From Actinomycetota bacterium (lineage in GTDB: Bacteria > Actinomycetota > Nitriliruptoria > Nitriliruptorales > Nitriliruptoraceae), in contig JAHWKY010000003.1 of the NCBI GenBank assembly GCA_019347575.1, positions 124,001 to 188,000 of the forward strand: DNA of 64,000 nucleotides. The letters run 5' to 3'. Under the pieces are notes generated by a model. It was given only the letters and a program-made list of their open reading frames with translations. It was not told the origin of the DNA and searched no databases. Both the position numbers and the translations under genes were made by a program. Of this stretch, positions 57,461 to 61,174 are shown in pieces. Numbering within the stretch: position 1 is the stretch's first letter; the number at the start of each line of letters is the position of its first letter.

Positions 57461-58177
57461 CTAACGAACGCGAGCCCGGACCCGCTCGGCGATCGTGGTG
57501 GTGAGCGCCACCGCGGCAGCGACGATGGCGACGGCGGTCTGCGCCCCGTGGGTCCGCAGCGGCACGTCGGTGCCGCGGCTGACCAGCTCAGCCTCCCTCG
57601 CGCGCAAGGTCAGCCCGCCTCCGTCCGCGGGGTCGACGCGCAGGATCGGGCCGCGGAAGTGGAAGACGTCGCCGCGGCGGCCGGGTCCACCGGTCATCTC
57701 GATGACGTCGGCGATCTCGGTTCCGACCCAGACCGTCAGCCCGGTGTTCGTGCCGTGGTAGTCGCGGTGCGCCGGCAGCGGCCCGGACTCGAGCGCGTAC
57801 GCGTCATCGTTGACGAGCAGCCACGCCCCGTCGTCCCGTCGCAGGACATCGCCGACGACCTCGCCGATGTACTCGATCGTGTGGCCGTCGAACACCTCGG
57901 GGCAGTTGACGACCTCGCTGGATCGCACCGGCCGGTCAGGGAGGGCCACGACTGCGCCCTCCGGTGTGGTCGGGTCACCGGATGTGCGCCGCCTGCAGGT
58001 GATCGCGGCGTCGGTCGGGTCGTCGGGGGAGCTGCTGCCGGGGGTGATGAACTCCAAGCCTGCGGCCGGCGCCGCGAGCCGGAGCTGGTGGATGCCTTCG
58101 CCCACCGCGAGGGCGAGGATCAGGAACGCCGTGGTGCTCAACCACAAGCGCGCCCGCGACATCCGGCCGCGGTTCAC
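57461..58177 (-). CDS. Exported OB-fold-like membrane protein of the Trk operon
   Basis: 238 residues. N-terminal membrane segment (about 10-30), a beta-rich extracytoplasmic part (about 60-205: VVNCPEVFDGHTIEYIGEVVGDVLRRDDGAWLLVNDD, TGLTVWVG) resembling an OB-fold nucleic-acid-binding-like or tRNA-anticodon-type domain, and a C-terminal membrane helix (about 212-230). Family not recognised. GTG 58177 overlaps the trkH stop by four bases (GTGA) with GAGGGGG upstream; ATG 58162 is an alternative. The tight coupling suggests an accessory role in potassium uptake or its signalling. Confidence 0.7.
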   Translation of the reverse strand: MNRGRMSRARLWLSTTAFLILALAVGEGIHQLRLAAPAAGLEFITPGSSSPDDPTDAAITCRRRTSGDPTTPEGAVVALPDRPVRSSEVVNCPEVFDGHTIEYIGEVVGDVLRRDDGAWLLVNDDAYALESGPLPAHRDYHGTNTGLTVWVGTEIADVIEMTGGPGRRGDVFHFRGPILRVDPADGGGLTLRAREAELVSRGTDVPLRTHGAQTAVAIVAAAVALTTTIAERVRARVR

Positions 58178-59682
58178 GTCCGCCCCCTCAGGGCCGCCAC
58201 CACGAAGCCGACGAACGCGAACACGGCCATGAACTCCAGCCGTCCCAGCCACATCTGGGCGATGTAGATGACCTGTAGCAACTGCGGCATCGCTGGGTCG
58301 GTGATCCCCACGCTCATGCCTGCGTTGGAGGCTGCGGAGACGGACTCGAACAGCGTCTCGGTCAGCTCCCAGCGACCGTAGAAGAGGGCGACCATGGCTC
58401 CGCCGAGGTAAGACAGCAGGTACAGCAGCAGCACCGTGGCTGCCGATTTGACCACCGAGTCCGTCAGGATGCGGCGGCGGTTCGAGTGGTAGGTCTCGAT
58501 GACGAGGGCGTTCTCGGGCATCAGGACGCGCCGGATGTCTCGTAGGAGTCCCTTGGTCACCAACCCGACGCGGATCGCCTTGATGCCGCCGGACGTGGAC
58601 GACGCCATCCCCCCGAGGGCCATCGCCCCGACGATCGCGGCAGGTGCCAGGACGCCCCAGTCGGTGACGAACAGACGCGACGTGTTCACGGTGAGACCGG
58701 TGTTGGTCTGGGCGGACACGATGGTGAAGAAGCCCTTGCGGAAGAGCGGATCGGCGTCGTTGAACGCGCCGCTGCGTACCAGTCCCAGGAACGTCAGGCC
58801 GGTCAGTACCAGCAGTGTCAGCGCGAGAGCGCGCGTCTCGATGTTGCGTAGCAGCTCGCTGCTCTGACCCCGCCACAGCTGGTAGTGGAGCCCGAACGAC
58901 AGCGTGCCAGCGAACATCACGACCATCAGCACACCCTCCACGAGCGCAGAGTGGTAGTACCCCACGCTCGTGGACTGGGTCGCGAACCCGCCCGTGTCGA
59001 ACGCGGCCATGAAGAGGTTGATCGCGTGGAACAGCGCGGTCGGGAAGGCGAGACCGGCCACCGTGTTGGCGATCGTGAGCGCGGCCGTCCCGACGAGCAT
59101 GAAAGCGAACGCGACGATGAAGATGAACCGCGCTGTGCGGATGACGTTGGGCATGATGCGCTCGTCGCGGCCCTCGCCCACGTAGAGGGTGCCGACCTGT
59201 GCGGACCCGGCGGCGAACAGCGTCAGCACGACGATGATGATGCCCTGGCCGCCCACGAACTGGGTCAGGTGCCGGAACAGGTTCATCGACCGAGCGAGGT
59301 GATCGATGTCCTGCAGCACCGTCAGCCCCGTGCTGGTCAGACCCGACATGGCATCGAACAACGCATCGAGGTAGGAGTCGAAGTGCCCCGAGAGGTACAG
59401 CGGGAGCGCGACCAGCAACGGGCCCAGGAGCCACGACAGCGCGACCGTCGCCATGCCGTGCGACCAGTCGAGGGACTCGCGGGTGAAGAAGACGGCCTCG
59501 CTGAGCCGTCCGACCGTAACCGCGACCGAACCGCCGATCACGAACGCCGTCAGGGCGTTCCACTCGCCGAGGACGAACGCCATGGCGGCCGGCAGGAACA
59601 TGACGAGGCCGAGTCCCAAGATGACCTTGCCCACGTAGAAGCCGATGATGCGCATGTCATCGCGGTCGGGGCGGATGAACAT
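58174..59682 (-). CDS. trkH: Potassium uptake channel subunit, TrkH/KtrB family
   Basis: 502 residues. Four M1-P-M2 repeats with selectivity-filter-like loops (GLTSTGLTVL, AFDTGGFATQSTS, AQTNTGLTVN, AASNAGMSVG). Transports K+ (with Na+/H+ coupling in some members) through the membrane and is gated by cytoplasmic TrkA-type RCK subunits encoded upstream. ATG 59682 directly follows the TAG of the 44-codon microprotein gene (TAGATG). Confidence 0.93.
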   Translation of the reverse strand: MFIRPDRDDMRIIGFYVGKVILGLGLVMFLPAAMAFVLGEWNALTAFVIGGSVAVTVGRLSEAVFFTRESLDWSHGMATVALSWLLGPLLVALPLYLSGHFDSYLDALFDAMSGLTSTGLTVLQDIDHLARSMNLFRHLTQFVGGQGIIIVVLTLFAAGSAQVGTLYVGEGRDERIMPNVIRTARFIFIVAFAFMLVGTAALTIANTVAGLAFPTALFHAINLFMAAFDTGGFATQSTSVGYYHSALVEGVLMVVMFAGTLSFGLHYQLWRGQSSELLRNIETRALALTLLVLTGLTFLGLVRSGAFNDADPLFRKGFFTIVSAQTNTGLTVNTSRLFVTDWGVLAPAAIVGAMALGGMASSTSGGIKAIRVGLVTKGLLRDIRRVLMPENALVIETYHSNRRRILTDSVVKSAATVLLLYLLSYLGGAMVALFYGRWELTETLFESVSAASNAGMSVGITDPAMPQLLQVIYIAQMWLGRLEFMAVFAFVGFVVAALRGRT

Positions 59683-59817
59683 CTACAGGATCCAGGTCAC
59701 GATGAGCGCCAGCACCCAGCCGATGACGTAGATGGCGGCCGTCCCCAGTGCGACGATGCCGATGCCCTCGACGGCCTGCCTGACGAGCGGCGGCTCGTCC
59801 CGTCGCGGGGTGCTCAT
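59683..59817 (-). CDS. 44-residue single-span membrane microprotein in the Trk operon
   Basis: Not found by size-limited gene calls, but clear when read by eye. ATG at 59817, TAG at 59685-59683. Protein: MSTPRRDEPPLVRQAVEGIG, then one hydrophobic helix (about 19-44) IVALGTAAIYVIGWVLALIVTWIL. Its ATG overlaps the stop of the trkA gene by four bases (ATGA) and its TAG is directly followed by the trkH ATG. The arginine-rich cytoplasmic N-terminus and single helix fit an N-in small membrane protein. Analogous small subunits exist in other K+ systems (KdpF of the Kdp ATPase), but I know of none described for Trk/Ktr, so function is inferred from context only. Confidence 0.75.
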   Translation of the reverse strand: MSTPRRDEPPLVRQAVEGIGIVALGTAAIYVIGWVLALIVTWIL

Positions 59818-60476
59818 CGCTCGCCCAGCAGGATCTGCTCCAGCCGCTCCTCGAGCTCCGGGGTCGTCAACGCGACGACCTCGTCGCCGGGGAGGATCTC
59901 GGTCGTTCCACGCGGGATGACCGTCTGCTCCTCGCGGAAGATGGCCACGAGGACCGCCTCGTAGGGCAGGCCGAGATCCACGACGTGTCGAGGTGGCGGC
60001 GCGCGTTCGTCATCCGGGATGCGCACCTCGACGAGGCTCACCTTGCCACCCTTGAGGCTGTAGAGGTGGATGAGTTCCCCGACCGTGAACTCGTGCTCGA
60101 GCAGCTCGGAGATCAGCCGGGTCGAGGAGACCGCCTCGATGTCGAGCGTCTCGAAGATCTCGACGTTCTTGGGCGTGTTGACGCGGCTGATGGCGCGTCG
60201 GACGCCGAACTCGACCTTCGCGAGCTGGCAGGCGACCAGGTTGTCGTCGTCCTCGTGCGTGGTTGCCACGAACACGTCCGCCCGGTCGACGTGCGCCTGC
60301 TCCTGGTAGCGCACGTCACAGGCGTCGCCCTGGATGACGAGTACGTCGTGGTCGGCGACCAACTGCTCGCAGCGTCCCGCGAGTCGCTCGAGAACCGTGA
60401 CGTCGTGGCCCTTGACGACCAGATCCGCCGCGATGTAGCGACCGATCCGTCCACCCCCCATGATCACCACGTACAT
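59814..60476 (-). CDS. trkA: TrkA/KtrA-type potassium uptake regulator (1)
   Basis: 220 residues. RCK N-terminal Rossmann domain (about 1-135; MGGGRIGRYIAADL, the GxGxxG nucleotide-binding loop; ERLAGRCEQL) plus an RCK_C domain (about 140-220; PRGTTEILPGDEVVAL). It forms the cytoplasmic ring that binds NAD(H)/ATP and gates TrkH. ATG 60476 shares one base with the stop of the preceding trkA-like gene. Confidence 0.92.
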   Translation of the reverse strand: MYVVIMGGGRIGRYIAADLVVKGHDVTVLERLAGRCEQLVADHDVLVIQGDACDVRYQEQAHVDRADVFVATTHEDDDNLVACQLAKVEFGVRRAISRVNTPKNVEIFETLDIEAVSSTRLISELLEHEFTVGELIHLYSLKGGKVSLVEVRIPDDERAPPPRHVVDLGLPYEAVLVAIFREEQTVIPRGTTEILPGDEVVALTTPELEERLEQILLGER

Positions 60477-61174
60477 CAGCGGGCCTCGTTGCGCGCGACG
60501 GCTCGCTCGGAGGGGTGGATCTCGCCCGCCTGGAGCAGGTGCGAGAGCCTGCGGTACGCGCCACGTCGGACCGCCGCCACGACGAGATCGCCGTGTTCGA
60601 GTCGATCGTTGTCGCCGGGGATGAACACTCGGGCTCCCCTCACGATCGCCGCGATGCGAACCTTCCCATCAAGCTCGAACGCGTCGACCAGCATGCCGTG
60701 GCCGCCCGGACCGATGAGCATCTCCACGACCGCGACGTCACCGTGGGGGAAGTGGACGTGGTGGCGGAAGGTGTCGGCTCGGAACTCGTTGAGGATCAGC
60801 TTGGCGATGACCCCGGTTCCCGAGACGTACCGGATGCCGAGCTTCTGGTAGCTGGTCTCCCGCTCGGGGTTGAAGAGGCGGGCCACGGTCCGCTCGACGC
60901 CGTAGAGGTGCTTGGCGATCTCGACCGCCATGAGGTTGGCGTTGTCGTAGCGCGTGACCGCCACCAGGCCGTGGGCCTGCGCGACCCCGGCACGCTCGAG
61001 CACGTCGCGATCGGTCGTGTCGCCAACGACTGTCTCGCCGTTGAAGGCGGAGCCGAGTCGGTCGAAGGCGAGCGGATCGGTATCGACGACGACCACATCG
61101 TTGTCGGGCTCCTGCGACAGGTGCTCCGCGATCTCCGACCCCAAGCGGCCGCAGCCGCCGACGATGATGTGCAC
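60476..61174 (-). CDS. TrkA/KtrA-type potassium uptake regulator (2)
   Basis: 232 residues. A second, different RCK protein: IIVGGCGRLGSEIAEHL (GxGxxG), DTDPLAFDRL, and an RCK_C domain (about 140-220; RGARVFIPGDNDRLEHGDLVVAAV). The pair of TrkA proteins resembles the two-chain CeoB/CeoC arrangement of mycobacteria. First gene of the five-gene minus-strand Trk operon. GTG 61174; upstream divergent gene is ispH. Confidence 0.9.
   Translation of the reverse strand: MHIIVGGCGRLGSEIAEHLSQEPDNDVVVVDTDPLAFDRLGSAFNGETVVGDTTDRDVLERAGVAQAHGLVAVTRYDNANLMAVEIAKHLYGVERTVARLFNPERETSYQKLGIRYVSGTGVIAKLILNEFRADTFRHHVHFPHGDVAVVEMLIGPGGHGMLVDAFELDGKVRIAAIVRGARVFIPGDNDRLEHGDLVVAAVRRGAYRRLSHLLQAGEIHPSERAVARNEAR

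Follow-up and report, generated by a model that had tools for sequence, protein, structure and literature searches.

Structures have been solved for the Trk/Ktr/HKT proteins, a model superfamily of K+ transporters that is viewed as a pore protein working with a cytosolic RCK ring (TrkH or KtrB with TrkA or KtrA in the Trk and Ktr systems). In gating by TrkA, the interface of the TrkH dimer is rearranged (PMC6987127). A small component of a related system is KdpF, a very short membrane protein with a single helix, encoded in the operon of a K+ uptake complex; KdpA, the membrane subunit of that complex, and TrkH are members of one superfamily. According to two papers (PMC3618439, PMC6255902), the presumed role of KdpF is to stabilise the KdpABC complex. 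Accessory microproteins of the CydX/DltX type (PMC10903887) are also single helices encoded in the operon of the complex they serve. For the Trk and Ktr systems the open full-text literature searched yielded no microprotein and no third small subunit embedded in the membrane, which agrees with the first-pass annotation of this DNA, where none was known.

The window, i.e., the whole stretch of 64,000 nucleotides that was analysed, carries a candidate for such a subunit between trkA and trkH. The features of the locus, in the direction of transcription, are:

60476..61174, minus strand: trkA-type gene 1, a single RCK unit of 232 aa that matches the first half of full-length TrkA models
59814..60476, minus strand: trkA-type gene 2, a single RCK unit of 220 aa that matches the second half of full-length TrkA models
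59814..59817, minus strand: the sequence ATGA, a 4-base overlap of the trkA stop and the start of the small gene
59683..59817, minus strand: gene for a small TrkH-associated single-pass membrane protein, 44 codons, stop included in the coordinates
58174..59682, minus strand: trkH, 502 aa, nearly full-length alignment to the solved TrkH (3PJZ/4J9U), N-terminal helices included
57461..58177, minus strand: gene downstream of trkH, 238 aa, its start overlapping the trkH stop as GTGA

The small gene runs from its ATG (59817-59815) to its TAG (59685-59683) on the minus strand and encodes 44 aa, MSTPRRDEPPLVRQAVEGIGIVALGTAAIYVIGWVLALIVTWIL. The first-pass annotation had described, with the strand left unstated, a 44-codon frame that exactly fills the gap between trkA and trkH, shares an ATGA with the trkA stop and ends in a TAG followed directly by the trkH ATG; the coordinates agree with it on each of these points, as the trkH ATG at 59682 follows the TAG with no gap. 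Its remark that common gene callers would miss a frame this short is doubtful, because 135 nt exceeds their usual minimum of 90 nt. The ATGA overlap is likely to couple the translation of the small gene to that of trkA, and in 35 of the related loci the start of the small gene shares four bases with the trkA stop, in 11 a single base. The two trkA genes, the small gene, trkH and the downstream gene, probably the last member, look like one translationally coupled operon.

The names trkA and trkH given to the neighbours earlier were confirmed by Pfam, with TrkA_N and TrkA_C domains above the cut-off in both trkA-type genes and PF02386 at 127.5 bits (cut-off 27) in TrkH. The locus thus resembles the known Trk/Ktr systems in that the genes around the small gene encode a genuine TrkH and two TrkA proteins of the RCK type, but differs from them in that TrkA is split over two genes, as follows from their matches to the two halves of full-length TrkA. 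This arrangement of two single-RCK genes suggests a mixed RCK ring. In TrkH, residues 11-492 of the profile align to residues 4-479 of 3PJZ/4J9U; its predicted structure is of moderate quality (pLDDT 70.7), and a PDB sequence search returned TrkH chains only. Since TrkH aligns end to end with the solved protein, the helix of the small protein is additional to the known fold. The small frame was also considered as a detached N-terminal part of TrkH; this idea was rejected on the same completeness of TrkH, and no natural fusion of the small protein with TrkH was found among the loci examined. The 57461-58177 product, without a Pfam match, has hydrophobic ends flanking a probable extracytoplasmic domain. 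Protein ends resembling it sit directly upstream of trkH copies in loci L007, L031 and L055-L057, so the gene seems to be another recurrent member of trk loci.

Several lines of evidence show coding conservation of the small frame. When the stretch was shuffled with dinucleotides preserved, none of 5000 shuffles gave a frame that covered 75% of it and contained a membrane helix; across 73 trkA-adjacent loci such a frame was observed in 97%, versus 0.06% after shuffling. Substitutions between close relatives fall 101/80/172 at codon positions 1/2/3, and 12 independent pairs give a pooled pN/pS of 0.45. The small protein is under purifying selection at the amino-acid level, because pN/pS is 0.45 and third codon positions are favoured. 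As judged from sequence, the frame is a real protein-coding gene and belongs to a conserved family rather than being a product of chance. The shuffles, the selection and the conserved position across relatives all bear out the earlier view of it as a real gene.

The distribution of the gene was followed across Actinomycetota, with class relatives of the window genome that include named Nitriliruptoria MAGs. In the first 30 trkH loci fetched, a one-helix frame lay directly upstream of trkH in nearly all, L007 being the clear exception, and most of the trkH upstream regions then fetched across the phylum have the same type of frame, those of AT-richer genomes included. Profile scoring covered 121 trkH loci. 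Within the TrkH clade of the window the small gene is present in 66 of 67 loci with adjacent trkA, the single exception being L236, where trkA directly abuts trkH, and in 10 of 35 loci without adjacent trkA. Among 20 control loci with more distant TrkH it occurs in none, and trkA mostly abuts trkH there. In the TrkH tree the gene is confined to one well-supported clade (96 rows) with several losses, mostly in trkH copies that lack trkA. The conserved frames in related loci have 37-75 codons and one helix, and keep position, topology and sequence alike. Conservation of the frame and of its helix in other actinobacterial trkA-trkH gaps, on which the first-pass annotation had made its proposal depend, was therefore found. 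The family is linked to one TrkH clade and does not extend to Trk systems in general. The nearly exclusive association of the gene with trkH, even in the ten loci without adjacent trkA, makes TrkH its likely partner. In turn, the 25 trkH copies without trkA that have no recognisable version indicate that TrkH of this clade is not strictly dependent on the small protein.

Part of these 25 negative loci, about ten, carry a different, divergent one-helix frame upstream of trkH (e.g., L115-L122, alignment A4). Profile comparison with the main family gave a probability of 84%, which is suggestive only, because helices resemble one another. Another family of the phylum (L114-L122) has, upstream of trkH genes that lack a neighbouring trkA, a 45-aa one-helix frame with strong conservation (MRKK...ETP..G.GIVLLSL.CFLL..W), which is probably a divergent version of the small gene. 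Two further loci, L044 and L066 (G125/G247), were considered as exceptions and rejected as such, the small gene being present upstream of a partial extra trkH. In L044 and L186 (G125) and in L187 (G247), the small gene and full-length trkH are separated by a partial extra copy of the trkH 5' end. The apparent membrane frames upstream in L031 and L055-L057 proved to belong to the end of another, larger gene and were left out.

Profile A3, built on 79 sequences with the window protein among them, was run on 61 and 397 whole genomes, with matches taken at E <= 1e-5. All such matches lie directly upstream of trkH, save L179, where the contig edge leaves no trkH to be seen. The counts at training loci are partly circular, because profiles A2 and A3 were built from the same families. 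The independent evidence is provided by held-out genomes and by position and hydrophobicity, which were scored before the profile existed. The trkH-adjacent matches include 18 genomes absent from profile building: 13 held-out genomes of the phylum (L173-L178, L180-L185, L188) and five further held-out relatives, trkH-adjacent by coordinates (G005, G013, G025, G026, G052). The window protein, itself part of the profile, scores 43.9-46 bits (E 2.9e-11 genome-wide), and it combines all features of the family: a position directly upstream of a TrkH of the clade, a basic N-terminus, one helix, Gly18 and the A3 match. No Pfam or NCBIfam family matched it or any of the 79 members, and the nine divergent versions had no NCBIfam match. 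The best A3 match away from trkH in the window genome (27 bits) is the last helix of a membrane protein of ~145 aa (G000:C7:19542-19976; L167:2543-2977), whose gene lies directly downstream of those for a TrkA_C protein and a Na_H_Exchanger-family antiporter in a KhtTU-like layout. A homologue of this protein follows the same type of antiporter in a genome of the same order (L250:1486-1923).

All family members contain a strong hydrophobic stretch. In the window protein AlphaFold predicts one helix for residues 11-43, with pLDDT 97-99 over most of it, its core, and a disordered stretch of ten residues before it, in line with the single membrane helix proposed earlier; the model leaves almost no periplasmic tail. 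The mean charge is +2.7 on the N-side and +0.3 on the C-side, which indicates an N-in topology, and the N-side exceeds the C-side in 82 of 96 sequences, so the basic cytoplasmic N-terminus of the first-pass annotation is upheld too. The tail is consistently basic and poorly conserved in sequence and length. Conservation within the helix is modest. Gly occupies position 18 in 77 of 79 sequences. At position 22 Nitriliruptoria have Val and most other members Glu; position 33 carries mainly Ala or Gly, and position 36 Ile, Leu or Val. These four residues could form one packing face. Helical periodicity of conservation was not significant in Nitriliruptoria, the class of the window, and gave p 0.04 in the other group (0.15 without Gly18). 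A scan for TrkH columns that track the membrane Glu22 merely split the two main clades, filter Met/Ser included, and it is uninformative on contact because its signal only separates these clades.

We regard it as moderately probable that the small protein is a single-pass accessory subunit of TrkH similar in role to KdpF. Coupled translation would produce it between TrkA and TrkH, and it would reside in the inner membrane with its basic N-terminus in the cytoplasm. Its helix would most likely pack against the exterior of TrkH and, by analogy with KdpF in KdpABC, most likely stabilise the TrkH dimer or the TrkAH assembly; it is thus physical binding and stabilisation of TrkH that we infer. The KdpF precedent raised in the first-pass annotation holds as a functional analogy but not as membership. 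In the window and its trkA-adjacent relatives the small gene sits in the trkA-trkH gap instead of a kdp operon, the protein has 44 aa versus about 30 in KdpF as well as a basic N-terminal tail, and KdpF models of NCBIfam and Pfam matched neither the 79 members (E <= 0.1) nor the window protein (E <= 1). The Pfam and NCBIfam model searches hence give no evidence of common descent of the two proteins. The CydX/DltX-type microproteins are comparable in size as well as in their single helix and operon setting, but have other partner complexes, and no sequence relation is implied.

Among the competing explanations, a chance open frame in GC-rich DNA is suggested by how common long open frames are in such DNA, with shadow frames listed in all directions here. 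Nevertheless, the shuffles, the purifying selection, the genome-wide specificity of the profile and the conservation of the gene in AT-richer members of the phylum make it extremely improbable. A frame that ribosomes traverse only to reach trkH, its peptide having no role, would fit the 46 trkA-adjacent loci in which it overlaps trkA by ATGA or by a single base, and the stop abutting the trkH start in the window. Such a spacer would hardly require amino-acid-level selection, one conserved Gly, a membrane helix as constant as that observed versus shuffled frames in the 73 loci, or a sequence family detectable genome-wide, and distant TrkH loci manage without any; we consider it scarcely probable.

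The product might also be a membrane protein co-transcribed with trkH and acting elsewhere, e.g., as a general small membrane or stress peptide. Partners encoded elsewhere than in the same operon are common for proteins of one helix, and another profile match in the window genome adjoins an operon of the K+/H+ antiporter type. The linkage to trkH is, however, nearly exclusive across many families of the phylum and outlasts the loss of trkA adjacency, which makes this possibility very unlikely. A direct role in gating deserves more attention, although it too is rather unlikely. The helix would sit on TrkH while the basic tail touched the TrkA ring or acidic lipids, tuning the opening of the channel by the nucleotide state of TrkA; a peripheral helix could affect the TrkH dimer interface, whose rearrangement in the established gating of TrkH by TrkA has been described (PMC6987127). 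The higher frequency of the gene next to trkA (66/67 versus 10/35 loci) and the constantly basic tail are consistent with this role, but the tail varies in sequence and length, some copies are kept without adjacent trkA, and the trkA linkage may merely mean that the operon stays complete around the main, regulated copy.

If the small protein is an accessory subunit of TrkH, the findings suggest that a textbook potassium channel has an overlooked small third subunit. What appears to be new is a Trk system bearing a small subunit, from a family of its own with no known Pfam or NCBIfam match. A microprotein conserved throughout a TrkH clade would supply a missing component that expression and structural studies of those systems would have to include, and would carry the KdpF principle over to the channel-like branch of the superfamily. 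The family also constitutes a compact, directly testable set of microproteins with a predicted partner. A bolder reading, tentative and on balance doubtful, is that across a whole clade of Actinomycetota the Trk channels have three components, with the microprotein setting the gating of TrkH by TrkA, and that analogous small membrane proteins stand beside haloarchaeal trkH, so that small third subunits would have evolved repeatedly and escaped notice.

Six plasmid trkH records from outside the phylum were also inspected. The three haloarchaeal trkA-trkH gaps among them were translated and contain no similar frame; in Acaryochloris and Azospirillum (70-nt gap) trkA adjoins trkH directly or almost so, and in Peptoclostridium it lies downstream of trkH. 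The haloarchaeal plasmid trkH overlaps by four bases a downstream gene of 66-67 aa (L257:2427-2627, L262:2433-2636). The encoded protein, annotated only as hypothetical, has two probable membrane helices and is possibly an unrelated small partner of TrkH.
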